A stretch of 64,000 nucleotides of DNA from an uncultured Armatimonadota bacterium (GTDB lineage Bacteria > Armatimonadota > Fimbriimonadia > Fimbriimonadales > Fimbriimonadaceae). The stretch lies in contig CAIUHP010000025.1 in assembly GCA_903899015.1 (NCBI GenBank), positions 1-64,000 on the forward strand, given 5' to 3'. Below the pieces are notes generated by a model. That model was given only the letters and a program-made list of their open reading frames with translations, made no database searches and had not been told where the DNA came from. Positions 882 through 17,450 of the stretch are shown here, in pieces. The position numbers were made by a program, and so were the translations under genes. Numbering within the stretch: position 1 is the first letter of the stretch; each line of letters begins with the position of its first letter.

Positions 882-2366
882 GTGCGTCCCGATGAGGTGC
901 ACGGCGTGCAGGTTTATGAGATAGTTCGTCGCTCTGTTCTTGTTCAGGGAAAGAGCATTCGTCAAGTTTCGTTGGATGTCGGCCTAGACTGGCGGACGGT
1001 TAAGAAGATGGTCTTCGAGCCGGTTCCTCCGGGCTACCGTCTTCATTCTTCTCGCCCGAAGCCCAAGCTTGGGCCGTTTCTCGCCGAGATCGAGAAGCTG
1101 GTGTTTCCAGAGGAGCCGTATCCGGCCAAGCAAATTCCGACAGCCCAGCGGATCTACGAGATTCTCGTAGAACATCACGGGTACACAGGTGGCAGCACTC
1201 AAGTTCGCGAGTACGTATCGGAATTGCGCTCACGGCCAAAGGAGGCGTTCATCCCGCTGGTGAGTATTCCCGGTGAATCGGAATCGGACTTTAAGGAGTC
1301 TTGGGTCGAGATCGCCGGAAATAAGGTTAAGGCTCACTGCTTCCTGATGGTTCTTCCTTATTCAGGCGTTTGGTTTTGCGCTTGCTACCCCAAAGAGAAC
1401 GCTGAGAGCTTTGCCGATGGCCATGCCAGGGCGTTTGAATTTTTTGGCGGAGTCAGCCGCCGCTCGCTTTATGACAACGCCGGATACGCTGTCAAACGCG
1501 GATCGGGCCCCATCAAAGGTCGTGAGCGCAGCTTGACGGACTCTTTCACCGAGTTACAATCTCGGTATCTGTTCGAAGCAGTCTTTGCCAACACTTACAG
1601 TGGCAACGAGAAGGGTTCGGTTGAGCGCAAAGTCGCAGTGATTCGCTCGCGCCTGTTCTCTCCAGTTCCCAAGGCGGACTCCTGGGAAGAGCTCAACCAG
1701 ATGCTCTATGACAACGCGCTCAAGGCAAAGGAAGCATCAGAGCGGTTTCACGAAGATGCCGCCAGACTGTTGCCGGTTCCGGATTACCGGCCAGAGCGTC
1801 TAGTGAGCGCCAAGGTCGATAAGCTCTCCCTGGTCTGTTTTGAAACCTGCTTCTACAGCGTTCCAACCCAGTTTGTTGGAAGGAGACTCACTGTAAAGGC
1901 AAGACCATTCGAGATTGAGATCTTTTCGGACAAAGAACGGATCGCTTGCCATAAGCGCTGCTTCAAGAAAGGTCGTTACCGGACGGACTATACGCACTAC
2001 TTGGATCTCTTGGAGAGAAAACCGAGAGCTGCCCGTTGCGCCATGCCAGTGCTTCAGGCTGGATTCCCCGAAGAGTTCGAATCCTTTCGCCAGCGTGTGA
2101 ACGACAACACGAGCGTAGGCGACCGGCGCTTTGTAGCCGTTCTTCGCCTAGCGAGCGAATTCGGCGTCGAAAAAGTTCAAGCGGCTCTTTCCATCGCTCT
2201 TGCTCGCGGCGTCACAGAACCCTCGGACATCCGGCTGCTTATCCTGCGTCAGTTCGACGAAGTCCAGTCAGCCATCAGGTGGGAGAATTCCTCTCGATCT
2301 CTCTCACCGAGTGTTGAACGCCCATCGCTGTCCGAATACGCCAAGCTCATGGAGGTGGCGGCATGA
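882..2366 (+). CDS. istA: IS21 transposase IstA
   Basis: 494 residues, the normal size. Residues about 10-45 form the N-terminal helix-turn-helix (SIRQVSLDVGLDWRTVKKMV). The DDE catalytic core starts near residue 130: first Asp in ESDFKESWVEIAG (D136), second in SLYDN (D198), and the glutamate in the NEKGSVE motif (243-248), all present. It catalyses cut-and-insert transposition with IstB as regulator. The GTG start at 882 lies about 85 bases inside the left end. The gene ends in a 4-base overlap with istB, so the two are translationally coupled. Confidence 0.9.
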   Translation: MRPDEVHGVQVYEIVRRSVLVQGKSIRQVSLDVGLDWRTVKKMVFEPVPPGYRLHSSRPKPKLGPFLAEIEKLVFPEEPYPAKQIPTAQRIYEILVEHHGYTGGSTQVREYVSELRSRPKEAFIPLVSIPGESESDFKESWVEIAGNKVKAHCFLMVLPYSGVWFCACYPKENAESFADGHARAFEFFGGVSRRSLYDNAGYAVKRGSGPIKGRERSLTDSFTELQSRYLFEAVFANTYSGNEKGSVERKVAVIRSRLFSPVPKADSWEELNQMLYDNALKAKEASERFHEDAARLLPVPDYRPERLVSAKVDKLSLVCFETCFYSVPTQFVGRRLTVKARPFEIEIFSDKERIACHKRCFKKGRYRTDYTHYLDLLERKPRAARCAMPVLQAGFPEEFESFRQRVNDNTSVGDRRFVAVLRLASEFGVEKVQAALSIALARGVTEPSDIRLLILRQFDEVQSAIRWENSSRSLSPSVERPSLSEYAKLMEVAA

Positions 2367-3118
2367 ACCCCGGAGAGAGGCTAAGTTTGGAAGCTCATTT
2401 CAAGACCCTACGCTTGCCGAGCGTCAACCGGGAGTACGCAAGGACCGCAGTCGATGCCGTAAACGAAGGCGTCTCCCATGAGCGGTATCTGCTCCGATTG
2501 ATGGAGATGGAACTTGCTGACCGGGACAACCGGGTCTTTGCAAAGCGTCTCAAGGATGCAAGGTTGCCATCCAAGAAGACGCTCGCCGAGTTCGACTTTG
2601 CCGCCATCCCAGCAGTAGATCCGATGAAGGTTCATCGGCTTGCTAGCTGCGAGTTCGTGGCGAGGGCTGAGAACGTTCTTCTTGTAGGCGGCAACGGCAC
2701 TGGCAAGACTCACCTAGCCACGGCGATTGCGGTTGAGGCTTGCAAGCGCAAGCTCTCCGTTCGTTTCTACACGGTCTCGCAACTCGTTGAAGCGCTCATC
2801 GAGGCACGTTCTGAAAGAGCGCTCTCAAGAATGAGGGCGTCTCTCAAAAAGCTCGATCTGCTCATTCTCGATGAACTCGGATTCGTACCGCTCCCGGCAA
2901 CTGGCGCCGATCTGCTCTTCGAGGTGGTCTCCGACCGATACGAAAGGCGCTCTATCGTCCTTACAACCAACCTGCCGTTCGAGGAATGGATATCAGTTCT
3001 TGCCTCAGAGCCGCTCACTCACACAATGCTCGACCGCTTAACACACCACGTTCATATCCTTGAAATGAACGCTAGAAGCTACAGGCTAGCGCAGAGCCTG
3101 CAGGCAAGAACCGCCTGA
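2363..3118 (+). CDS. istB: IS21 helper ATPase IstB
   Basis: 251 residues, typical for the DnaC-like AAA+ IstB/ATPase partner of IstA that selects target DNA. Walker A is GGNGTGKTH (109-117), Walker B is LLILDELGF (166-174), and the sensor-like TTNLPFEEW follows. The ATG lies within the last codons of istA (ATGA overlap). The gene ends about 100 bases before the right end. There is no frameshift or stop, so the element appears capable of moving. Confidence 0.9.
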   Translation: MNPGERLSLEAHFKTLRLPSVNREYARTAVDAVNEGVSHERYLLRLMEMELADRDNRVFAKRLKDARLPSKKTLAEFDFAAIPAVDPMKVHRLASCEFVARAENVLLVGGNGTGKTHLATAIAVEACKRKLSVRFYTVSQLVEALIEARSERALSRMRASLKKLDLLILDELGFVPLPATGADLLFEVVSDRYERRSIVLTTNLPFEEWISVLASEPLTHTMLDRLTHHVHILEMNARSYRLAQSLQARTA

Positions 3119-4678: not shown

Positions 4679-4703
4679 ATAAGCCATTAAAGAATGGGCT
4701 TAT
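4679..4703 (-). terminator. Stem-loop at the end of the galactosidase operon
   Basis: ATAAGCCATT (4679-4688) pairs with AATGGGCTTAT (4693-4703) around a 4-base loop with one bulged base. It overlaps the stop codon of the GH42 gene, the last gene of the operon. No T-run follows, so it may be an RNA-protecting hairpin rather than a true intrinsic terminator. Confidence 0.4.
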
Positions 4704-6754
4704 ACATCGACACTGAGTACCGCAACTCCGTATGGTCCCAATTCCAAGCTTTCACTGATTACCTGATTGTTCAGGACCTCTCGGTAAGTGCCGGGAAGAG
4801 GCAGCCAGTGAGTTTCGACAGTGGTATTCAAAATGAAGAGAAACTCTCCCTTCTCGGTCGTTCGTTTGGTTGCAGATACTCCCTCCGGAAGATTGAAAGG
4901 AGTTGCACTTTCGATGTCGAGTTGGATGACTAATCGATGTAGCAATGAAGACGTAAAGGCTGCGTCATTACGTGACGCCACGTAAATTGCTTGCCCATTT
5001 CCGACTCGATTCAAAGTGATCGCGGGCTCGCTGGAATACCAAACTCCGGCATATTCTGCGAGCACCTCGGCGGTGGTCGTGTGGATTCGCTCACAGAAGG
5101 TGTTGGCTTGAAATATTCCGTCTAATCCAAGCTCGTTGTAGTCGATTACCACATCGACAGTCTGCTGGGGATACCGAGCATCAATCTCCTCTACCGTGAT
5201 GCCGAACAAATCGCGAAGAGGTCCTAGGAAGCCATTCTGAAAGATAAGATCGTTCTCATCAACATATCCCGAGAAATAAGTCCCCACAAGTGTTCCACCA
5301 CCTTCAACAAACGCCGAAAGCCGCTCGGCCACACCGGGACGAAGCATGTAGAGCATGGGGGCGATGACCAATTTGTAACCCGATAGGTCCGCATCGGCAT
5401 TCACGATATCGACCGAGATTCCCGCTTGCCAAAGGGGCATGTAGTGGTCAAGACAAGTGTCAAAGTAGCCCTTACTCTTTTGAACCGGGCCACAGGCACC
5501 GTCGATCGCCCATGCCACTTCCCAATCATAGATAATCGCCACATCGGCCTTGGTAAATCCACCCACGATTTCTTCGATATAGCGAAGGTCCGTACCAACG
5601 GTCGCGACTTCCTGGAAGATTCGAGAATGCTCGCCCTGATTAATCCCCACGACGGCTCCGTGAAACTTTTCTTGGCCGCCACGGCATTGGCGCCACTGGA
5701 AGTACATCACGCTATCCGAACCATGAGCAACCGCTTGCAGGCCCTCAAGTCGGTGCATTCCTGGAGTCTTGAGGTTCATATAGGGATACCAATTTGAAGA
5801 ACTTGGCGTGCACTCCATGAGCAAGAATGGCTTACCACCCTTCAACGAACGGTACAAATCGTGGACCATTGCTACCTTTGCCCAAGATCGCTCGTTCATG
5901 GGTTCTTGCGAGAATTGCGGATAGCTATCCCACGCCACCACATCCACATGAGGTGCCATCTTCCAAGCGTTCAGCCCACCGTAGAAACCCATGAGGTTCG
6001 TCGTAATGGGAACGTTTGGGGTGATCCGACGCAAAGGTTCCGACTCGTTCATGTAAAAACTCACGATTTCGTCCGTGGTGAATCGATTCCAATCGAGGGT
6101 GAGACCTTGAACGGCTGTCTCACTGTAAGGCGGCCCGGGGATTTGAATCTGATCCCAGTCCGTGTAGGTGTGGCCCCAAAACTTCGTCCAATATGCCGCA
6201 TTGAGGGCGTCGAGCGAGTCGTTGAATTTGTTCTTAAGCCACTGAATGAAGGCTTGGCGACTGGCCTCGGAATAGGACATGCCGCCGTATTCGTTGCTCA
6301 CGTGCCACATCAGCAGTGCAGGGTGGTTGCCATACCGCTCAGCCAAAACCGTAGCAATCTCGCGAGTTTTCTCGCGATAGATGGGCGACGACCAGTCGTA
6401 ATTCACCCGGTTACCATGGAGTTGCTGCACACGATCTGGCCCGACTCGAAGTGTGGAAGGGTACTTCCGAGAGAGCCAAGCAGGTGGGGCTGCGCTCGGC
6501 GTAGCGAGGATCGCAAACTTGCCGTGCTTGTGGAGGGTGTCCATCACCTCATCCAGCCATTCGAAAGTGTAAAAACCTTCTTCCGGTTCCATCGAGACCC
6601 AGTCAAAGACTCCAACGGTTGCCACGTTTATCCCCGCCAAGTCCATCAATCGCATGTCCTCAACCAGAAACTCCTTCGGCCACTGCTCCGGGTTATAGTC
6701 GCCCCCGTGCCAGAAGACGGGAAGTTTGGAGCTGATAGGTAGGAAGGGTTTCAT
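4700..6754 (-). CDS. GH42 beta-galactosidase
   Basis: 684 residues from the ATG at 6754 (KPFLPISSKLPVFWHGGDYN). A GH42 (clan GH-A) enzyme that releases terminal beta-galactose. The acid/base glutamate lies in MWHVSNEYGG (N154-E155) and the nucleophile in LLMECTPS (E314), followed by a trimerisation-like flavodoxin fold (about 400-600) and a small C-terminal beta domain. There is no signal peptide, so it acts in the cytoplasm on imported oligosaccharides. Seven bases separate it from the upstream GH50-like gene. It is last in the LacI operon. Confidence 0.92.
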   Translation of the reverse strand: MKPFLPISSKLPVFWHGGDYNPEQWPKEFLVEDMRLMDLAGINVATVGVFDWVSMEPEEGFYTFEWLDEVMDTLHKHGKFAILATPSAAPPAWLSRKYPSTLRVGPDRVQQLHGNRVNYDWSSPIYREKTREIATVLAERYGNHPALLMWHVSNEYGGMSYSEASRQAFIQWLKNKFNDSLDALNAAYWTKFWGHTYTDWDQIQIPGPPYSETAVQGLTLDWNRFTTDEIVSFYMNESEPLRRITPNVPITTNLMGFYGGLNAWKMAPHVDVVAWDSYPQFSQEPMNERSWAKVAMVHDLYRSLKGGKPFLLMECTPSSSNWYPYMNLKTPGMHRLEGLQAVAHGSDSVMYFQWRQCRGGQEKFHGAVVGINQGEHSRIFQEVATVGTDLRYIEEIVGGFTKADVAIIYDWEVAWAIDGACGPVQKSKGYFDTCLDHYMPLWQAGISVDIVNADADLSGYKLVIAPMLYMLRPGVAERLSAFVEGGGTLVGTYFSGYVDENDLIFQNGFLGPLRDLFGITVEEIDARYPQQTVDVVIDYNELGLDGIFQANTFCERIHTTTAEVLAEYAGVWYSSEPAITLNRVGNGQAIYVASRNDAAFTSSLLHRLVIQLDIESATPFNLPEGVSATKRTTEKGEFLFILNTTVETHWLPLPGTYREVLNNQVISESLELGPYGVAVLSVDV

Positions 6755-6761
6755 GGTTCGG

Positions 6762-8507
6762 TTAGTTCGAAGGTGTTCTAATATTGGACCAACGGATGGC
6801 GTACGCGTTGGATCGAGTTCTGATCTCAAAATCCATTTTCAGCTTTTGCCCTGGTTCAATGCTCTTCAGCCCGAAGGCAGCCGCTGGGATGCGGATAACC
6901 GCCGTGTTCCTCACTCCCATTTTGAGCGAAACAAGCTCAACGGGACCGTCGACAAGAGACTTTCCTTCCATAAATCGAACCGAAGCAGCCCTTTTTAAGT
7001 CGATTATCGATAGGATTGGCTCGTCAACGGTTGGGATCTTACCGTTCCGGTAGAACGCTTCCGAAAAACGATCTTCATTCCAGTAAATCGCGAGATAGGC
7101 GGCCCCGGAGGTCCAAGCAAGGTAGGCATCCCCTCTATCAGAGGGACTAGATGGCTTGACGTAGGCAGTGCTTCTCGGCCATTTTTCTAGATCCTTGGCG
7201 GCCAAAGCACTGATTTCGGGAATCCCCGATGGCTTTTCTTCCGTCAGAACGGAACGATTTTGCAGATCAAGTTCTGAGGCAACTTGCGTCAGCTCTTCAT
7301 AAGGGTCGTTATTGATGTCAACAAGTCCCATATTGTAATTTTCGCCGTCGGGACGACCATTTTTCGGTTCGTCGTAGTATTGAAACCAATGAGCCCCGAC
7401 AATAAAGGGCGTCTCAAGGAAATACTTCGTGGATGCGCGAAAACCCTGGGCTCTCTGCTCTTGAGTTTCCACGACCGGAAAACCCGAGGAATCGTTCTTG
7501 TTACCGGATCGGTTCTGCTTCGCGCTGAAGTAGTACTCACTAATCATCAAGGGCTTGTTCGCAATGCGAAATAGGCTGGGCAAATAGTAAGGTGCAAACG
7601 TTCCATCCTTCCAGTCAGCATTGAAGTTTGTGGACACCACGTCCGCATACTTGCCCGCTACTTGGGCTACTTCGGGATAGAAATTCGAAATAAAGCGGTC
7701 GCCTAAATAGAGAGCCCCAGGGTCGAATTGTTTGATGATTGATCGGCAAAGTGAGTAATAACGCTCCGACAGAGTTTTGATATAGGTATGAACGGCATTG
7801 ATTCCGTTTCCGCCTGGTCGGAGGAAAAGACGTCCTTTACTCTTAAGATCCCCAAAACTCGTAGCTCCCCCGGGATCGAAATCTTTTGTAAGCGCGGTCC
7901 AAGTTCGGTACCTTTCAATGAGCTGATGAACCAAAACCTTTCGAGTATGACTGCCTTTCCATGCCCACTCGAACAGAGCCCCGTTCCACCATCCCAGCTC
8001 GTTATCTGAGAAGTAACCGATGATACGAGGGTCCGCATTAAGGGCTTTGAGCTGGTCGCGAGCAACGTCGGACATCAACTGAACAATCTTTGGATCCCAC
8101 ATATCTCGCCAGGGCGCACCAGCGGAGGAGCCGATATGCAAAATCGGCGTGAAACGCAGGCGAGGCGCTTGAACTGGCAACAAGTTCTTCGTGTCGCTCC
8201 ATGCACCGATGGTATTGAAGTTCCACCTTTCGAACCTTTTGGCGACGTCTTCTGCCCACGCTGTTTTACCCTCGGTGTAGTACTTGAACGCGGAGTAGCT
8301 TGGATTCTTTGGGTCGTAATCGAGATAGGAGGTGCCGGAGTCGACGCAGCAGACGCCAAACGAAAAGAATGGCACCTTGTCGGCACCTTCAATCCACCAC
8401 GCTCCATTTTCCTTTACTAGGTGGTAGCGAGAGATAGATTTAGATGGCGATAAATCAGGAGCGAAGTTTGAGGAGCCCAGCAAGTACATGCATGCTATGG
8501 CGAGCAT
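6762..8507 (-). CDS. GH50-like agarase-type glycoside hydrolase (paralogue 2)
   Basis: 581 residues with an N-terminal hydrophobic segment (about 1-12), probably exported. A clan-A barrel carries the candidate acid/base in GYFSDNELGWW (E170) and the nucleophile in LMISEYYFSAK (E324). GAHWFQYYDEP and the following DGENYNMGLVD resemble GH50 beta-agarases. The last 150 residues (from about 440) look like a CBM9/DOMON-type sugar-binding domain. The start codon directly follows the TAA of the upstream paralogue. The substrate is probably a beta-galactan; agar itself is not proven. Confidence 0.75.
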   Translation of the reverse strand: MLAIACMYLLGSSNFAPDLSPSKSISRYHLVKENGAWWIEGADKVPFFSFGVCCVDSGTSYLDYDPKNPSYSAFKYYTEGKTAWAEDVAKRFERWNFNTIGAWSDTKNLLPVQAPRLRFTPILHIGSSAGAPWRDMWDPKIVQLMSDVARDQLKALNADPRIIGYFSDNELGWWNGALFEWAWKGSHTRKVLVHQLIERYRTWTALTKDFDPGGATSFGDLKSKGRLFLRPGGNGINAVHTYIKTLSERYYSLCRSIIKQFDPGALYLGDRFISNFYPEVAQVAGKYADVVSTNFNADWKDGTFAPYYLPSLFRIANKPLMISEYYFSAKQNRSGNKNDSSGFPVVETQEQRAQGFRASTKYFLETPFIVGAHWFQYYDEPKNGRPDGENYNMGLVDINNDPYEELTQVASELDLQNRSVLTEEKPSGIPEISALAAKDLEKWPRSTAYVKPSSPSDRGDAYLAWTSGAAYLAIYWNEDRFSEAFYRNGKIPTVDEPILSIIDLKRAASVRFMEGKSLVDGPVELVSLKMGVRNTAVIRIPAAAFGLKSIEPGQKLKMDFEIRTRSNAYAIRWSNIRTPSN

Positions 8508-10232
8508 TTACTTTACGCCTATTAGCGCTGTTTTCCATTCCATATGTTCACCTCGCCCATGAGAATCGAGCGATGAGCTTAGAGGTAGTCCGTCAAAAAA
8601 CGATAGCTTTTTGTTAGGGATCTTTAAAATAACCGTATATTTTAATCCTTCAACTTCTTTGACCTCTATACCCGGTACGTTCACCGATGCACGTTGATTC
8701 TTGCCGCCATATCGCACATCGATCTTTAGACTAGACAGCCTAATTTGCCAATGGTTCCGATCAACGTTTGGTATGTGGCCACCCACATACAGACTCTCGT
8801 CCATATAATCCATTGCGTACAAGCCGAGATAGAGACTTTCGTTGTCTTGAGCGACAAACATATCCGCAAAAGGCTGGCCGGTTGTGCATTGAATCACCCC
8901 TTTCTCTCTTGGCCAATCCTTGAGAGCGCTGGAAGGTACCACTGGTAGCGAAGGAACGTATAACCGACCTAGCGGCAGAGGATCTTTTGCTTGTGAGCGC
9001 AGGTTCGAAATTCCTAAGGAACGACACGTCGCAACCATCTCTTCGTAAGGTCGCCCCTCGGTGTCAACCAACCCCATGTTCCAATCTTCTCCGTCTCCTC
9101 GACCATTTGCCGGTTCATCGGAAAATTGGAACCAGTGAGCACCCACTACATATGGAAGCGATGCAAGTGAGCGCACGTACTTACCGAATGCAGCCGCACG
9201 CTCAACTTGGGTTTTCACTAACGGAAACGCGGATCCCGAATTCTTGTTTCCGCTTCGATTTTCCTTCGCCGACATATAGAACTCAGTGACTATGACGGGC
9301 TTCTTGGTGATCGTGTTGAGCGTTCGAAGGAAGAACGGAGCGATCGACCCATCATTCCAATCCGCTCCAAAGTTCGTCGAGATCACATCCACGTATTTGG
9401 ATGCGGCCCGGACAATTGGCATAGAGTAGTACTGACAGTAACGGTCACCCAGAATGAGATGCCGTTTGTCATACCGACGAATCGTCGATTTCATCAGCGA
9501 GTAATAGCGCTCGCCGAGTGCTTGAACGAATGCATTGATCGCTTTGCGACCGGTACCGCCTGGCCGCTGGTGAAGAGTCGTGATCGATTCAAATGAATGA
9601 GTGCTCGTGACCCAATCTTTCTCAAACTTTTGAAAATCACCGCTATAGAACTTCTTGAGCGTCTCGATCAACACCCTGCGACCGGGTGCGGTCGGTTTCA
9701 TTCCTAGATAGGACTTAAACAGCGTGTCGTCCCACCACCCAAGTTCGTTATCGGTGAAATATCCTACAAGGTACGGATCGTTCGCAACCGGAAGGATTTG
9801 CTTCTTGGCAGCCGCGTCGGTCAATCGCTCCATCTGGGGAGAAAACAGATCGTGCCACGGTGCCAAGTCATAGGCACCAAGATGCAGGACAACAAAATAG
9901 GGCATCCGATCTTTTCCCGCGTATTTACGGAACAGATCGTCGTCGGACCAACCACCGGTTGAGTTGAAACCCCACTGCTTTAACTTTTGAGTCGCGTCCT
10001 GGACCCATTCTTGATCGCTGGTAAACAGCCGAAAGGAGGCATAAGACTTGTTCGTCGCTTTGTAGTCCTTCTTACTGGTGCCGGTATCCACGCAGTCGGG
10101 GGCAAAAGACCAAAACGGCTGCCCCGAGGGAGTAGTAAATGACCAAGAAGTGCCTGTCTTATGAACCGTGAAGAAGCCCTGTGGGGACTGTCCCAGGCAC
10201 GTAGTGACGAACCCAATAAGAGGAAGAATCAT
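8508..10232 (-). CDS. GH50-like agarase-type glycoside hydrolase (paralogue 1)
   Basis: 574 residues with a signal peptide (MILPLIGFVTTCLGQS, cleavage after about residue 15). Same architecture as its downstream neighbour: barrel with GYFTDNELGWW (acid/base E163) and VIVTEFYMSAK (nucleophile E317), then GAHWFQFSDEP and DGEDWNMGLVD, and a C-terminal CBM9-like module from about 435. The two are clearly a tandem duplication but diverged, suggesting different linkage specificity. Stop and next start abut without spacing, so they are co-translated. Confidence 0.75.
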   Translation of the reverse strand: MILPLIGFVTTCLGQSPQGFFTVHKTGTSWSFTTPSGQPFWSFAPDCVDTGTSKKDYKATNKSYASFRLFTSDQEWVQDATQKLKQWGFNSTGGWSDDDLFRKYAGKDRMPYFVVLHLGAYDLAPWHDLFSPQMERLTDAAAKKQILPVANDPYLVGYFTDNELGWWDDTLFKSYLGMKPTAPGRRVLIETLKKFYSGDFQKFEKDWVTSTHSFESITTLHQRPGGTGRKAINAFVQALGERYYSLMKSTIRRYDKRHLILGDRYCQYYSMPIVRAASKYVDVISTNFGADWNDGSIAPFFLRTLNTITKKPVIVTEFYMSAKENRSGNKNSGSAFPLVKTQVERAAAFGKYVRSLASLPYVVGAHWFQFSDEPANGRGDGEDWNMGLVDTEGRPYEEMVATCRSLGISNLRSQAKDPLPLGRLYVPSLPVVPSSALKDWPREKGVIQCTTGQPFADMFVAQDNESLYLGLYAMDYMDESLYVGGHIPNVDRNHWQIRLSSLKIDVRYGGKNQRASVNVPGIEVKEVEGLKYTVILKIPNKKLSFFDGLPLSSSLDSHGRGEHMEWKTALIGVK

Positions 10233-10554: not shown

Positions 10555-11379
10555 CTAGTTACCCGTGTAGTTAGCAAGCCAGTGCTTGGGATTATCCATT
10601 TCGTCTGGCTTGTGGAACTTGGCGCTGGTATCTGCCATCACGAAGTTTGATCCACCGTTGAACTTGCGCCACGAATTGTACATTGCTTTCCAGAATGAAT
10701 TGGGGGAAGTTGGTGTGGCCAACCGGATGCCCGTAGGGATCCAGTCACCGTAAATGCCAGGGAAAACGTAGCAGTAATCAATTTCGTTGTTCAGCCATTC
10801 ACCGCACCCGTAAGCATAGTTGTAGTACTCGTCAAATCCGTTTGCGAGCATCACGACATCGGTAGGTGATCCAACTGCAGTAGCCGAAGTGGCACCGGAA
10901 TTCGAGTTAGTGAAGGTGCTTGGAATAGTGAAGAGCCCGGTTGGGTTATTCACACCCCAATCAGCGTATCCAAAGTCAGAGATCGCATTTGGCCAGTAGG
11001 ACATTGCTTTGGGTGGCCGACTGGCAGGAAGGCCATAATAAGCGGCGTTATCGATGTTTGGAAAACTATCGACAGGCGACTTGATCATATCCGTATTTTT
11101 GATATAGGGCTGAGCTACTAGTTGGCTCGACCAAAGAGCTGTGCTTACTGGCCAGTTAGTAAAATCACCCTGAATAAGCCGGGGATAAGTGTCATCCGCA
11201 TCATTCATGTAGATGACGATCCCGGTTGCATACTGCTTCAGATTGGAAAGGTCGGCGGTCTTCTTTGCGGCCAGCTTGGCTTGTGCGAAGACGGGGAAGA
11301 GGATAGCGGCCAAGATCGCGATGATGGCGATAACGACCAAGAGTTCGATAAGCGTGAAAGCTTTATGATTGCGTTGCAT
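10555..11379 (-). CDS. Type IV prepilin-like protein with N-terminal methylation motif
   Basis: 274 residues from the ATG at 11379, preceded by a GAGG Shine-Dalgarno nine bases upstream. After a short basic leader comes the class-III motif AFTLIELLVVIAIIAILAAI, processed by prepilin peptidase and kept as a membrane helix. The rest is a pseudopilin-like globular domain. A late GGSNFVMADTSAKF matches the H-X9-DG processing-associated domain seen in Planctomycetes/Armatimonadota families. It follows lacI directly and shares its transcript, so it is presumably expressed with the hydrolases. Confidence 0.85.
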   Translation of the reverse strand: MQRNHKAFTLIELLVVIAIIAILAAILFPVFAQAKLAAKKTADLSNLKQYATGIVIYMNDADDTYPRLIQGDFTNWPVSTALWSSQLVAQPYIKNTDMIKSPVDSFPNIDNAAYYGLPASRPPKAMSYWPNAISDFGYADWGVNNPTGLFTIPSTFTNSNSGATSATAVGSPTDVVMLANGFDEYYNYAYGCGEWLNNEIDYCYVFPGIYGDWIPTGIRLATPTSPNSFWKAMYNSWRKFNGGSNFVMADTSAKFHKPDEMDNPKHWLANYTGN

Positions 11380-11390
11380 AGAATAGTTCC

Positions 11391-12464
11391 TCATTGACGA
11401 ACAGCAGGGGACGACTTTGTCCCATCGACGAATGGAGCAGAAAATGCTCCGCATGAATTACGAACGGTAAGTGAAACTGGAAGGACCGGCTGGGGATCGA
11501 TGCTGTCATCGCCCTCAAGCCGTGCGATGAGCATTCTTGCCGCCATCTCACCCATCTCTTCAATGGGCATATGGACGGTCGTTAGCGGCGGCTGGGTCAG
11601 AGTGGCGTACCAAGTGTCGTCGTATCCTACGACAGCGATATCGTCTGGGACGCTGAGCCCAGATGCCCGAATGGCCCGGATCGCACCTTCCGCACAAAGG
11701 TCATTTGCAGCAAAAATAGCGGTCGGCATATGCTTCAATCCGCGTTGAAGTAGTTGCTGAGTCGAGTCCATTCCTAGTCGCCAATCGAATCCTGACTGAA
11801 CGATTAACTCTTCTTGAACCTCGATGCCCGCCAGTTCTAAGGTGTCTCGAAAACCACGGGCGCGTGGTTGAGAAGTTGAAACGTCTTGTGATCCCATGAG
11901 GTGGGCTATGCGCTTGTGACCCAGCCTTACCAGATGCTCTGCAGCCATGCGTCCACCGGTGTAATCGTCAGAATTGACCGACCAACTCCCAGCGATTGGG
12001 CGATCGAGAATCGAGACATAGGGGATATTTCGCTTCTTACACTTCAAGAAAATAGCGCTGTCTTCAGGAGGCATAACCAGTAGCAAGCCTTCAATTCGAG
12101 AATCGACAAGCATCGCGGCGCGATCTTTTTGAATTCCACTTGTCGCTGTGTAGAGCATCAAGTTGTAATGCCGGTGAACAACCTCCCGCATGATGCCGGA
12201 CATCACCTGATTACAAAATGGGTTTTGATCAACGAAAGCGTCGGCGTAGGGAAGCATCAAGCCCAAGACTTTGGTCTTTCCGGTGGCTAGGCTTTTTGCA
12301 ATGGGGTTGGATACATAGCCTAGCTGGGCGGCGGCATCATAGATGCGCTCACGAGTGGCTTGGCTCACGCGGATGGTGCTCCCACTGGAATTATTGAGTG
12401 CAGCCGAAACCGCCGTAATCGAGGTTCCCGCTAGTTTTGCGACGTCTCGGATAGTAACTGCCAT
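11391..12464 (-). CDS. LacI-family transcriptional regulator
   Basis: 357 residues. The N-terminal LacI helix-turn-helix is VTIRDVAKLAGTSITAVSAALNN in two parts (residues 3-25), followed by the hinge and a periplasmic-binding-type sugar domain (about 60-340, with VVGYDDTWYATLTQPPLTTV). It probably represses in the absence of an imported sugar. A palindrome of LacI type lies 25 bases upstream of its start (12489-12506) and a near-identical one before the ABC transporter (14263-14280), indicating autoregulation and control of the transporter. First gene of the prepilin/GH operon. Confidence 0.92.
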   Translation of the reverse strand: MAVTIRDVAKLAGTSITAVSAALNNSSGSTIRVSQATRERIYDAAAQLGYVSNPIAKSLATGKTKVLGLMLPYADAFVDQNPFCNQVMSGIMREVVHRHYNLMLYTATSGIQKDRAAMLVDSRIEGLLLVMPPEDSAIFLKCKKRNIPYVSILDRPIAGSWSVNSDDYTGGRMAAEHLVRLGHKRIAHLMGSQDVSTSQPRARGFRDTLELAGIEVQEELIVQSGFDWRLGMDSTQQLLQRGLKHMPTAIFAANDLCAEGAIRAIRASGLSVPDDIAVVGYDDTWYATLTQPPLTTVHMPIEEMGEMAARMLIARLEGDDSIDPQPVLPVSLTVRNSCGAFSAPFVDGTKSSPAVRQ

Positions 12465-12488: not shown

Positions 12489-12506
12489 TGATAAACCGCT
12501 TCATCA
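12489..12506. promoter_or_regulatory. LacI-type operator upstream of lacI
   Basis: TGATAAACCGCTTCATCA: the half-sites TGATAAA and TTCATCA flank CCGC, an 18-bp LacI-family style site with a central CG. On minus, a TACAAT box (12515-12520) lies just upstream, so bound repressor would cover the start region of the lacI transcript. It matches 14263-14280 at 15 of 18 positions. Confidence 0.7.
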
Positions 12507-12560
12507 AACGACCTATTGTATGACAGAAGACGGCGTATAATCACAAAATGTTGGTGAGAC

Positions 12561-12577
12561 AGACCAAATAGTGGTCT
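12561..12577. promoter_or_regulatory. Second operator-like palindrome in the divergent region
   Basis: AGACCA-AATAG-TGGTCT has perfect 6-base arms and a 5-base centre. It differs from the LacI site. It lies 24 bases upstream of the -35 box proposed for the SGNH gene, a position fitting an activator or a second regulator. The partner protein is unknown. Confidence 0.45.
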
Positions 12578-12600
12578 TCAAAGCCGGAAATGAGGGCGAT

Positions 12601-12630
12601 TTCGCAATAAATCACAAGAGATCGTATGAT
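12601..12630 (+). promoter_or_regulatory. Putative sigma70 promoter of the SGNH hydrolase gene
   Basis: TTCGCA (12601-12606), 18 bases, TATGAT (12625-12630). Predicted transcript start about 12637, with the ATG at 12684. The same TATGAT box appears before the ABC transporter. Confidence 0.45.
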
Positions 12631-12683
12631 TTCGCAGTCTGCTCAAGCTTCGCCGACACATGCCTTCCGCTTGAGTGAATTTC

Positions 12684-14228
12684 ATGAAACGAATATTCTG
12701 GACTTGCATCGTCGGTAGCGTCATCGGTGGAAGCGTGCATGCTTCCGCTTGGACAACTATGAGTGAAATGTCAAACTTAAAGGCTCAGAAACATCTCGTG
12801 AGTTGGATGACAAAGGGCGATATTCAGCCGGCGGGCGAAAAAACACCTCCCCACGATATTCTTCGTTTTGGGCCTGGAATTGGCTCCGCCAGCCAGAAAT
12901 TCGACATTCCAGGGTCAAGGATTGTCGAATTCAGCGCGAAATCTCGATTTGAAGGGGAAGATGTTGCGGCCAGAATTCGCGCTCAATGTTTTGATGCCCG
13001 AAATCGGGTCGTTATGGACCTCACACAAATCTTTGATTCCAAAAAGGGAGCTACAAAAGAGGGTTCTTCAGCCGGTATTTATTTTAAGACCCAAGCCCAT
13101 ACCGCCTATTTGGTTGTTAGCATCGAAAAGACAGCGAAGTCCGCCGGTCCTATGACGGTTGAGTCTGCCGAAGTACAAGATTTCGACAAAGACCGAGTCG
13201 AGCATAAGCCGGAATGCAATTTGGACGAGTACATGGTGCCCATTTGGCAGGGGAATACTGTCTATAACGAGACCGTTTTGATGGTCTCGACCGGTGGAAA
13301 TCCAGCTTCAGGCTCGTTGCTTTACAAAGCTGGGAAGATCTTGTCGGTCAAAGACAGCCAACTTAAGGTCACTTACCAAGATGGCGTTGACTATGCTGTT
13401 GAGGGCTCCACCCTGACCTGCCTTCCCGGTTCCAAGATGATTTCCCTCAAGGACACCGATTTTCCCAAGGATCAATATCCATGGTGGACCGTTGCAGGCA
13501 AACATGTCGCTGTCACTTACGAGCACACTGACAATTGGAAGGGCCCGTTGCCTGAGTTTCGGTGCGGAAATCTTTCTGCGACGATGCGCAAACTGTCCGG
13601 CAAGAAGCCACTAACGGTCGTGGCTCTCGGGGACAGCATCACCCTGGGTATCGGTGTCTCTGGCTATCGAGGGGAACCTCCCTATATGCCAACGTGGGCA
13701 GATTTGTTTACCGGTCAACTCGCCAAGATTTATGGGGATCATCATATTCAGCTTTACAATGCAGGGCTTGGTGGCATGACCTCTCGGTGGGGGGATGACA
13801 ATGCCGCAAGCGCAGTTGCCTCACTTGATCCTGACCTAGTGATTATCGCTTTTGGGATGAATGATTTTTGGTCCGTGGATGCTGATTCGTTCCGTAAAAG
13901 CATTTTGGCAACGATCCACACGGTCCGGCAAAAGAGGCCAAAAGCCGAGTTCATACTCATCTCATCGATCCGCTTCGACCCGATTTATACCGTTGAAAAG
14001 GACTATGTGGGGCATCTGACATCGTACGCCAAGGAACTCCAATCGCTTGCCGGTCCAGGAATCGGTTTTCTCGACATGACTGGGCTCACCGACTATCTCT
14101 ATAAGGTCAAGAGTTCGAAGGATTTGATGTCAGATCCAATGCATCCCGACGACTTCCTCGCCCGCTGGTATGCCCAAAGTCTCGTTGCAATGCTCGACAA
14201 TAGGATGGTTGGGAGCAGAAGAAATTAA
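12684..14228 (+). CDS. Secreted SGNH/GDSL-family esterase with N-terminal accessory domain
   Basis: 514 residues from the ATG at 12684 (a GTG three codons upstream is the alternative). The signal peptide is KRIFWTCIVGSVIGGSVHASA. Residues about 40-170 resemble a beta-sandwich carbohydrate-binding module. The catalytic SGNH domain has block I ALGDSITLG (Ser about 318), GLGGMTSRWG, FGMNDFW (block III GxND) and the terminal D-x-x-H in SDPMHPDDF. Such enzymes usually remove acetyl or other acyl groups from polysaccharides. It lies between the two operator sites, consistent with de-esterifying the galactan substrate. Confidence 0.85.
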   Translation: MKRIFWTCIVGSVIGGSVHASAWTTMSEMSNLKAQKHLVSWMTKGDIQPAGEKTPPHDILRFGPGIGSASQKFDIPGSRIVEFSAKSRFEGEDVAARIRAQCFDARNRVVMDLTQIFDSKKGATKEGSSAGIYFKTQAHTAYLVVSIEKTAKSAGPMTVESAEVQDFDKDRVEHKPECNLDEYMVPIWQGNTVYNETVLMVSTGGNPASGSLLYKAGKILSVKDSQLKVTYQDGVDYAVEGSTLTCLPGSKMISLKDTDFPKDQYPWWTVAGKHVAVTYEHTDNWKGPLPEFRCGNLSATMRKLSGKKPLTVVALGDSITLGIGVSGYRGEPPYMPTWADLFTGQLAKIYGDHHIQLYNAGLGGMTSRWGDDNAASAVASLDPDLVIIAFGMNDFWSVDADSFRKSILATIHTVRQKRPKAEFILISSIRFDPIYTVEKDYVGHLTSYAKELQSLAGPGIGFLDMTGLTDYLYKVKSSKDLMSDPMHPDDFLARWYAQSLVAMLDNRMVGSRRN

Positions 14229-14237
14229 GATAGGACC

Positions 14238-14266
14238 TTCCCAAAGCACCTAACCCCCTGTATGAT
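14238..14266 (+). promoter_or_regulatory. Putative promoter of the ABC transporter operon
   Basis: TTCCCA (14238-14243), 17 bases, TATGAT (14261-14266). The -10 box overlaps the operator at 14263-14280. The predicted transcript start (about 14273) is only a few bases before the GTG at 14281, so the mRNA would be leaderless or nearly so. Confidence 0.45.
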
Positions 14267-14280
14267 GAAACGGTTCATCA
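14263..14280. promoter_or_regulatory. LacI-type operator upstream of the sugar ABC transporter
   Basis: TGATGAAACGGTTCATCA: perfect 7-base arms TGATGAA/TTCATCA around ACGG. It overlaps the -10 box and touches the start codon at 14281, so bound repressor would block transcription directly. It is the best-conserved copy of the site also seen at 12489-12506. Confidence 0.75.
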
Positions 14281-15630
14281 GTGCGAACGTTCCTCTTCAT
14301 CACCACTGCGGCAATGCTCGCCGCATCTATCCTTGTCTGGAAATTACAGCCACCTCCAACGTCGGACGGCCGGGTTGTATTGACCTGGGTTACCGATGAC
14401 AACCCAGCGCGAAAAGGTCAGGCTGCCCTCTACGAAAAGCTTCACCCAAACATAAAAATCAATATTGATCCCGTAAATGGAGGGGTCGAGAAGGTTATTG
14501 TGCAGTGCCTCGCTGGGGTCGGACCTGACGTTTTCGATGCGTTTGATGCCTTTCAGCTCGCTGCTTACGTGAAATCCGGGGTAGCGCTCGACGTAACTGA
14601 TCGGCTCCAAAAAGATGGAATTGAACTTAATAAGGATGCGTTCCCAGGTGTCTTGGGAACTAGCGTTTATGGTGGAAGAACGTATGGAGTCCCGACGAAC
14701 ATCGCCGCCGACGGCATTTGGTATCACAAGGATTTGCTTAGAGAAGCTGGGGTAGGGCTCCCTCGTGGGGCTTGGACTTGGCAACAACTTATTCCGATTG
14801 CCCAGCGGCTCACCAAGCGGGGCCCTGAAGGTCGAATCACCCAGTACGGCTTGATGTTTGAGTGGTGGAATTGGCGCCACTTCTTTACGATTTTTGGAGC
14901 TCACGTTTTCAATCCCAGCGGTACGATGTGTGATACCGATTCACCCAAAGCTATCGCCGCGATTCAGATGATGGTGGACCTGGTTTACAAGTACCACGTG
15001 TCTCCTACCCCGGTTGAAGAATCCTCAATGGCAACTCAAGGTGGGTTTGGCTCGGGATACATTTCACTTCTGGCCGCTAAACGGGGGGCAATGGCAGTTG
15101 GAGGTCGATGGTGGCTTGGCGAGTTACGTAGCGTTAAGGGGTTGGAGTTAGGAGTAGTCGAGTCCCCTACGGAAAAGGTTCACGCGTCTCATGCTTACGG
15201 TCGCGGCATGCTTGTCAACAAACATTCCGATCATCTCCGAGAATCCTTGGCATTCCAAGAATACTTGTCGTCGGATGCTTACCTTTCACTTGTTAATGAT
15301 CAGGCCGACGGAGCAGGAGCTTTTGTAAGAGCAGACGAAACCTCCAAATTTCTTTTTAATCCTCAGCATCCGAGTGAAAAATCCAACGATGTCTGGCTCC
15401 GCATTATGAAAATGGGAGTGGGGGATGAGGTGAGTCCGTTTGTCGATTCAAGTACCGTCGCACGCTTAATTCAAGTTCAAATCGACCTCGTTCAGACGGG
15501 CCAAAAGAGCCCAAGCATAGCAATGAAGGATGCGTCGAAGAACATAAACGACGCGATTCAGAAATCTATATCCGAGGATCCTGGCCTTGCAGAGAAATTC
15601 GAAGCGGCCAATAGGAATCAGCCGTTGTGA
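14281..15630 (+). CDS. Sugar ABC transporter substrate-binding protein (family 1)
   Basis: 449 residues from GTG at 14281. The N-terminal hydrophobic segment (MRTFLFITTAAMLAASILVW) has no lipobox cysteine, so the protein is either secreted or held by an uncleaved anchor. The fold is family-1 extracellular solute-binding: GPDVFDAFDAFQLAAYV, YGVPTNIAADGIWYHKDLL, then aromatic WWNWRHFF in the sugar-binding region. It delivers oligosaccharide to the two permeases that follow (4-base overlap with the next gene). No Shine-Dalgarno sequence is visible. Probably induced through the adjoining LacI operator. Confidence 0.88.
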   Translation: MRTFLFITTAAMLAASILVWKLQPPPTSDGRVVLTWVTDDNPARKGQAALYEKLHPNIKINIDPVNGGVEKVIVQCLAGVGPDVFDAFDAFQLAAYVKSGVALDVTDRLQKDGIELNKDAFPGVLGTSVYGGRTYGVPTNIAADGIWYHKDLLREAGVGLPRGAWTWQQLIPIAQRLTKRGPEGRITQYGLMFEWWNWRHFFTIFGAHVFNPSGTMCDTDSPKAIAAIQMMVDLVYKYHVSPTPVEESSMATQGGFGSGYISLLAAKRGAMAVGGRWWLGELRSVKGLELGVVESPTEKVHASHAYGRGMLVNKHSDHLRESLAFQEYLSSDAYLSLVNDQADGAGAFVRADETSKFLFNPQHPSEKSNDVWLRIMKMGVGDEVSPFVDSSTVARLIQVQIDLVQTGQKSPSIAMKDASKNINDAIQKSISEDPGLAEKFEAANRNQPL

Positions 15631-16586
15631 AGAAGAATCGGAGTCAGCTTCGGGCGGCAATCGGGTTTCTGGCACCCAACCTTCTTGGATTTTTGTTGTT
15701 TACGGCTGGTCCGGTTGTGTTTTCTCTCGGAGCAAGTTTCACCAATACAAACCTCCAGCAAACAATTCCTTTGCGCTTCAACGGGCTGGCGAATTATTCT
15801 GAGCTGATTCATGACAAAGCGTTTTGGCTGTATTTGGTCAACACCCTCTACATGATGCTTGGGCTTCCATTTGCGATGTTCGGGTCGCTGTGGCTTGCGG
15901 TCTTGCTGAGCCGAAAATTACGAGGAATCTCAATCTTTCGAACGCTTCTCTATCTGCCAAGTTTTGCCAGTGGAGTCGCGATCATGATTCTGTGGAAAGC
16001 CCTTTACAATCCTGATTTTGGACCGATCAACGAGACCCTCCGTCACGTTTTTAACGCTCTGAAGATTCACGCCGATTCTCCGCAATGGCTTCAATCGACC
16101 CATAACATGGCCGGTCTGGATGTTGAACACGTTGGCGTCACGTCAAAGCAATTTGGTCTTGGAGGGCGTGATGCGATGATTCTAATGGGAGTGTGGATCG
16201 CCATTGGCGGCAACAACATGCTTCTGTACCTGGCGGCTCTTTCCAATGTGCCTGAAGAGTTACTGGAAGCAGCTCAGCTTGATGGGGCGGCGCCCTGGAG
16301 GTGCTTCCTGAGCGTGACGTGGCCGCAGTTGGCACCTACGACATTTTTCATCTTGGTCATGTCGATTATCGGAGGATTGCAAGGCGGCTTTGAAACGGCG
16401 CGGGTGATGACTTCGGGTGGACCCGCAGGAACCACAACGACTCTCGCTTACTACATCTACAGCCTCGCTTTCGAACAGTTTCGTATTGGATATGCCTCTG
16501 CCGTCGCGTGGGTTCTTTTTGCGTTTGTCTTTGTTGCCACTCTCATCAACTGGAGGTTTGGAAACCGTGCCGCCAATGAAATGTAA
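15627..16586 (+). CDS. Sugar ABC transporter permease (MalF/UgpA type)
   Basis: 319 residues, six predicted membrane helices beginning LGFLLFTAGPVVFSLGASF. The EAA loop that docks on the ATPase is EELLEAAQLDGAAPWRCFLSVTWPQL (two parts, about residues 212-237). A soluble stretch around residues 150-180 (DSPQWLQSTHNMAGLDVEHV) is longer than usual between helices. It starts with GTG inside the end of the binding-protein gene, so it is co-translated. Pairs with the next gene to form the channel. Confidence 0.9.
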   Translation: MKKNRSQLRAAIGFLAPNLLGFLLFTAGPVVFSLGASFTNTNLQQTIPLRFNGLANYSELIHDKAFWLYLVNTLYMMLGLPFAMFGSLWLAVLLSRKLRGISIFRTLLYLPSFASGVAIMILWKALYNPDFGPINETLRHVFNALKIHADSPQWLQSTHNMAGLDVEHVGVTSKQFGLGGRDAMILMGVWIAIGGNNMLLYLAALSNVPEELLEAAQLDGAAPWRCFLSVTWPQLAPTTFFILVMSIIGGLQGGFETARVMTSGGPAGTTTTLAYYIYSLAFEQFRIGYASAVAWVLFAFVFVATLINWRFGNRAANEM

Positions 16587-16622
16587 CTCTTGGTTTCCGC
16601 TTCTCTTGAGAGGGAGCGTGAC

Positions 16623-17450
16623 ATGAATCGAAGGTTGGTTCTAGGTGCGAAGAATGGAGCGGTTGTAATCATCCTCGTCGTATTTGCAGTGTCAACATTG
16701 GCACCCCTTCTGTGGATGATTTTCACAAGTTTCAAACCTCTTCAAGATGTAGAAGGAGGTTCCCTTGTGCCGAAGACTTGGCATTCAGAGAACTACTCAT
16801 CCGTGTTCCAGCAAGTACCATTTGCCCGCTACTACCTGAACAGCGTGTTCATCGCGGCATGGGTGACATTCCTGACTTGTCTCACTAGTGCGATGGGTGC
16901 GTTCGCTTTTTCACGTCTGGAATGGAAAGGGCGAGATGCTCTTTTCCGGCTCTACTTGGCGACGATGATGATCCCTGGGGTCGTCACGATGATTCCAAAT
17001 TACACGTTGATGGTCAAGCTTCATTTGCTAGACTCTTACACCGGACTAATCATCCCGTCTGCCTTTGGGGCTTTCGGAACTTTTCTCCTCCGGCAGTTCA
17101 TGCTTACGATTCCCAAAGCGCTGGATGAAGCGGCTACGATTGATGGGGCGGGATATTGGAGTGTCTTCGTCGACATCGTTTTGCCACTAGCTCGTCCGGG
17201 CGTGATCGCGTTGGCCATATTTACTTTCCTTGGCAACTACGGCTCCTTCTACTGGCCCTTGGTGCTGATCAAGTCCGACAGTTTGAGAACCCTTCCCGTT
17301 GGAATGATGTACTTCGACACGACTTACGGTCGCCAAACCAACCTCCTCATGGCCGCCAGTGTGATGAGTCTTCTTCCGCCCATTCTCCTGTTCCTCATCG
17401 GCCAAAAACACCTCATCAAAGGCATCGCCTTCGGCGCGGTCAAGGGTTGA
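16623..17450 (+). CDS. Sugar ABC transporter permease (MalG/UgpE type)
   Basis: 275 residues from the ATG at 16623, chosen because GGGAG lies six bases upstream; an in-frame GTG at 16590 would add 11 residues. Six helices. The EAA motif is PKALDEAATIDGAGYWSVFVDI (about 170-191). It forms the heterodimeric channel with the preceding gene. No ATP-binding subunit is encoded nearby, so a shared MsmK/UgpC-type ATPase elsewhere must power it. The operon ends here, convergent with coaBC. Confidence 0.9.
   Translation: MNRRLVLGAKNGAVVIILVVFAVSTLAPLLWMIFTSFKPLQDVEGGSLVPKTWHSENYSSVFQQVPFARYYLNSVFIAAWVTFLTCLTSAMGAFAFSRLEWKGRDALFRLYLATMMIPGVVTMIPNYTLMVKLHLLDSYTGLIIPSAFGAFGTFLLRQFMLTIPKALDEAATIDGAGYWSVFVDIVLPLARPGVIALAIFTFLGNYGSFYWPLVLIKSDSLRTLPVGMMYFDTTYGRQTNLLMAASVMSLLPPILLFLIGQKHLIKGIAFGAVKG

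Follow-up and report, generated by a model that had tools for sequence, protein, structure and literature searches.

Predicted operators of one LacI-family repressor at a glycoside hydrolase operon and the neighbouring ABC importer

Genes, promoters and palindromes of the locus

The stretch of DNA that was analysed, here called the window, is 64,000 nucleotides long. It contains a one-strand run of genes for a LacI-family repressor, a prepilin, a small lipoprotein, two GH50-like enzymes and a GH42 β-galactosidase, with the genes of an ABC importer on the other strand (Table 1). The gene after the importer permeases encodes a flavoprotein of pantothenate metabolism, so there is no ATPase gene directly after the importer. 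On the left side of the window, at 882-3118, lies a gene pair for an IS21-type transposase and IstB. The repressor has both the helix-turn-helix and the sugar-binding core domain of its family. Characterised GH50 members are agarases, not galactanases. Neither GH50-like enzyme was matched by a Pfam or NCBIfam model; enzyme a aligned over approximately 330 residues with β-agarase 4bq2 and has DNE and EF in common with it, motifs that we take to hold the GH50 catalytic residues. The SGNH/GDSL hydrolase, which has its own promoter-like sequence upstream, is probably a functional partner.

Table 1. Positions of genes and predicted regulatory features in the window
Feature	Position	Strand	Basis or remark
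GH42 β-galactosidase	4700..6754	-	E 1.8e-141; start reset to ATG at 6754
GH50-like enzyme b	6762..8507	-	β-agarase 4bq2, E 6.1e-26
GH50-like enzyme a	8508..10232	-	β-agarase 4bq2, E 4.4e-29
Small putative lipoprotein, 91 aa	10278..10553	-	lipobox by eye
Prepilin	10555..11379	-	N-terminal methylation motif
LacI-family repressor, recognition helix IT-AVSA	11391..12464	-	PF00356 E 5.9e-12, PF13377 E 2.5e-43
Operator 1 (lacI promoter), predicted	12489..12506	.	TGATAAACCGCTTCATCA; kept upstream of lacI orthologues
Probable -10 box of lacI, TACAAT	12515..12520	-	by eye; 8 bp before site 1
SGNH gene promoter-like TTCGCA-18-TATGAT	12601..12630	+	promoter scan
SGNH/GDSL hydrolase	12684..14228	+	between lacI and importer
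Importer promoter-like TTCCCA-17-TATGAT	14238..14266	+	promoter scan
Operator 2 (importer promoter), predicted	14263..14280	.	TGATGAAACGGTTCATCA; immediately 5′ of start codon
Importer solute-binding protein	14281..15630	+	
Importer permease 1	15627..16586	+	
Importer permease 2	16590..17450	+	TTG start set mechanically

The two palindromes are 18 bp long, differ at 3 of 18 positions and are both even with a central CG. Site 1 is 24 bp upstream of lacI, and the last base of site 2 directly precedes the GTG start of the importer. Site 1 lies just past the TACAAT box; on the lacI strand a stricter promoter scan gave no full promoter match and a -35 box was not recognisable. Site 2 overlaps the TATGAT (14261-14266) that forms the -10 element of the importer promoter match. 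Similar boxes were seen by eye before or overlapping the site in relatives. An earlier, sequence-only reading had claimed that two 18-bp palindromes at these positions agree at 15 of 18 bases, that the second overlaps a TATGAT box and that both sit where a repressor would block transcription; the positions, the agreement and the overlap were borne out, and the blocking placement was supported.

A search of the window with the shared pattern, allowing up to 3 mismatches, gave four strand-matches, all at the two sites, and none of 100 dinucleotide shuffles reached four (mean 0.35 matches). Since the two sites themselves had supplied the pattern, this shuffle test alone is circular. A matrix was also built from eight sites of five relatives (two each from G018, G071 and G068, one each from G025 and G023); nothing from the window or from its closest relative, G020, went into it. 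Scored over the 64-kb window, this relatives-only matrix placed site 1 first (score 28.4) and site 2 second (26.3); the third score was 13.97 and the best of 20 mononucleotide-shuffled windows reached 18.3.

Site 2 might also be read as coding, with ATG ATG AAA CGG as the true start of the signal peptide, since ATGATGAAACGGTTC translates as MMKRF. That frame, however, stops soon without any binding-protein sequence. In G018 and G020 as in the window, an in-frame TGA TGA within site 2 closes the importer frame, which excludes a mis-called start, and the similarity of the binding protein to its relatives starts immediately after the site. On this evidence the coding reading was rejected as almost certainly wrong. 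Only four of 24 hand-listed gene starts in the window have a Shine-Dalgarno-like motif, so an importer start that lacks one is usual here.

Recurrence of the sites and class of the repressor

We searched for the repressor across 85 genomes, took 14 stretches with 14 of the best lacI relatives and sought the lacI site in the 150 bp upstream of each. The site recurs 5′ of orthologues at 50-92% identity, with 0 mismatches in G018, G020, G025, G023 and G068, 1 in G071b, G001, G021 and G002, 2 in G018b and G015, and 3 in G007 (probable Fimbriimonas ginsengisoli), the genome with which the window was placed in the same genus. It was not found in two of the 14 orthologues, G071a (8 mismatches) and G084 (6 mismatches). 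For each of G018, G020, G025, G023, G068 and G071b, 0 of 300 shuffles were as good. No more than 1 of 300 shuffles matched the score of any of the twelve relatives with up to 3 mismatches; the pattern was widened after the sister sites were known, and the values for G001, G021, G002, G018b, G015 and G007 are descriptive. In G023 a single copy of the operator precedes a one-strand run of lacI, prepilin, lipoprotein, GH50-like, SGNH and GH42 genes and an importer of another subfamily. G071 has two divergent lacI-prepilin-GH50 runs (L053, 830-19876) that face each other around an importer and a GH42 gene, with the operator at one lacI gene but not at the other.

In the window's own genome (4.94 Mb, 119 contigs), exact matches to the pattern occur at the two sites only. 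At up to 3 mismatches there were 22 forward matches versus 7 for the reversed pattern. In whole-genome scans of seven genomes, with 1 mismatch allowed at most, 0-mismatch matches were confined to these clusters, and the reversed pattern gave no match. The sequence-only reading had named random occurrence of the palindrome across the genome as grounds for abandoning the idea. This is not what we see: beyond the two sites there is no exact match in the own genome, and the six near-matches examined (L003-L007, L075) all lie within open frames of more than 100 aa. A wider exact regulon in this genome was rejected. The L075 near-match falls inside a gene that by eye resembles rpsG, and the same look-alike is present in G025. 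Three near-matches in G018 (L073, L074, L076) lie outside open frames of more than 100 aa. One of these, TGGTGAACCGGTTCATCA (L076, 1501-1518), is between a prepilin gene and a FAD-oxidoreductase-like frame and is a possible further regulon member there.

In LacI-family recognition, Arg at AA-20 is paired with G at NT-6, as given in the available text of Camas et al. (PMC2978694). The window repressor has AVSA at AA-17 to AA-20 and so lacks the Arg that is usual there, while NT-6 of its operator is T in place of the G found with Arg-type proteins; this puts it outside the TVSR class (T-V-S-R at AA-17 to AA-20, G at NT-6). In loci of this family, proteins with AVSA or AASA have half-sites of the TGATRAA type in six of eight cases, the window included, all with T at NT-6, and where AVSV and VVSV proteins have a palindrome, its half-sites are TGATTAA-like. 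The palindromes of TVSY proteins are different ones, one kind with T and another with C, and the own genome's single TVSR protein has G. In this survey 45 of 102 loci gave no helix and some of the 68 hits are spurious. As a control we took 80 loci of named genomes, where the best upstream palindrome was G-G in 14 of 19 Arg cases and in 22 of 24 Lys cases, with some pattern hits not being LacI. One motif for all LacI proteins was rejected, as other helix classes have other palindromes. The helix class thus tracks the operator sequence and the AVSA helix is in none of the other ten of the own genome's 11 LacI proteins, so the site and this repressor class belong together, although AA-20 alone does not explain NT-6. 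Compared with the TVSR class as far as PMC2978694 describes it in the text available, the window system shares the half-site core AAnC, the central CG and the AA-20/NT-6 pairing, and it differs in the AVSA helix, in T rather than G at NT-6 and in conservation out to NT-9 (TGAT).

For the importer site we compared 15 binding-protein genes from 13 of the 85 genomes (E 1e-40 or better). The site stands 0-3 bp before the start codon with 0 mismatches in G000, G020 and G018, 1 in G068 C13, 2 in G084 (a divergent variant) and 3 in G071; the remaining nine genes have at least 5 mismatches. If genomes with a repressor relative at 45% identity or above are counted as bearing the repressor, the site is present in six of eight genes from such genomes versus none of seven from genomes without it (28/5005, about 0.006, in a one-sided Fisher test calculated by hand; the identity cut-off was drawn after the fact). 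It is absent from the G025 importer and from the second G068 copy, both in repressor-bearing genomes. At the G084 importer (L223), two copies of a variant palindrome around TTAACCGNTTAA, the nearer one 3 bp and the farther one about 111 bp from the start, are perhaps a drifted operator. The LacI tree did not discriminate between an importer that had been split off and one that had been joined.

The position of site 2 is unusual. More than 75% of LacI-family sites fall between 140 and 30 bp upstream of the start codon in the local regulons treated in the available text of PMC4052901, whereas operator 2 abuts it. This would favour a view where only operator 1 is real and serves autoregulation, with site 2 being a chance look-alike or the site of another LacI. 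Against this, site 2 recurs 0-3 bp from the start in six genomes and is missing where the regulator is missing, no other LacI of the own genome shares the helix, and the relatives-only matrix ranks site 2 second in the window. We consider a single real operator very unlikely.

Pairing of lacI and prepilin genes

In the own genome, which has 80 prepilin-motif matches and 11 LacI genes, 7 of the 11 lacI genes have a prepilin gene of the same orientation as their direct successor (pairs are in the window at 10555-11379 and on contigs C18, C56, C107, C66 and C113). In G007 (5,231,762 bp in one contig, 103 prepilin matches) this is the case for 15 of 24 lacI genes; 2000 circular shifts gave a mean of 0.10 pairs and a maximum of 2. 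The window regulon is one case of this wider pairing. A small lipoprotein gene comes next after the prepilin in several loci. The structure predicted for the prepilin (mean pLDDT 38.8) was too poor for use. For F. ginsengisoli, 79 pseudopilins have been reported and attachment proposed (PMC4072686); the word LacI is absent from the main text of that paper, in the part of it available. Within the literature searched, no paper brought together prepilins, LacI and armatimonads, and the titles and abstract starts among the papers listed named no lacI-prepilin pairing; a further search gave one paper, on vent-sediment hydrolases.

A tentative and rather doubtful extension is that across the family sugar-specific LacI proteins each control their own prepilin, with the small lipoprotein beside it in the loci inspected, and that a pseudopilin matched to the substrate would be exchanged along with the enzymes and importer for the same glycan. 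The operator pair of the window would then be one instance, run by an Arg-less LacI class. If this were true, the pseudopilin would be a device dedicated to one glycan, for its capture or for secretion. The pairing makes it possible to ask whether the many pseudopilins of this lineage, whose abundance is unexplained, are sugar-induced parts of glycan use.

Proposed regulation, substrate and known systems

The conserved footprint upstream of lacI, the exclusivity of the site in its own genome, the co-occurrence of site and regulator and the match of helix and operator class together favour control of both promoters by one LacI. Judged from sequence comparison, the two palindromes are very probably the operators of this repressor, which would exert autoregulated local control of galactoside use in a GanR-like role. 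On this point the sequence-only reading, which had put regulator, prepilin, lipoprotein, GH50-like enzymes, GH42 and importer under one LacI, holds; its list omitted the SGNH/GDSL gene. We infer binding, repression and inducer as follows. Without inducer, the repressor would occupy operator 1, immediately after the -10 box of lacI, as well as operator 2, which spans the importer's -10 box and the point where its transcription probably starts. Both the run from lacI to GH42 and the importer would thus be shut off. A galacto-oligosaccharide from a β-galactan-type polymer would probably relieve repression. The repressor is presumably dimeric; a leucine-heptad tail was not seen by eye.

A GH53 endo-galactanase lies between lacI and GH42 in sister operons of G001, G002, G007 and G021, which points to a β-galactan-type substrate by family resemblance. 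β-1,4-Galactobiose is the inducer of GanR, the galactan repressor, and the GH53/GH42 neighbourhood of the sister repressors is what bears on such an inducer here. It is distinctly possible, if less probable, that the repressor senses another sugar, such as agaro-oligosaccharides or an arabinogalactan fragment, and that the regulon does not serve galactan use. The likeness of the GH50-like enzymes to β-agarases speaks for this, and the GDSL esterase suggests a decorated polymer. Against it, the operons of the sister repressors encode a GH53 endo-galactanase and the same GH42. Galactoside control by one LacI, as proposed here, would give a well-bounded, testable regulon with two operators in a phylum whose gene regulation has been little studied, one where relatives without the regulator and without the site serve as a control set and where the repressor represents a recognition class that the published TVSR code does not cover.

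The operator pair is a system of a familiar kind. As in the LacI-family local regulons covered by the available text of PMC4052901, an even palindrome with a central CG goes together with autoregulation and adjoining carbohydrate genes. The closest likeness we draw is to GanR of the Bacillus subtilis ganSPQAB operon, as far as the accessible text of PMC5472308 describes it. GanR is also a LacI-family local repressor with a site at its own gene and at an importer and hydrolase operon, and its regulon likewise joins a GH42 type β-galactosidase with galactan oligomers. The sites of GanR are pairs of AGTAAA-N4-TTTACT beside the -35 box, a sequence from which the window site differs, whereas each window promoter has one CG-centred 18-bp site at the -10 box or start. 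The window also has two GH50-like enzymes in place of GH53, and it carries a prepilin and a lipoprotein gene in the operon.
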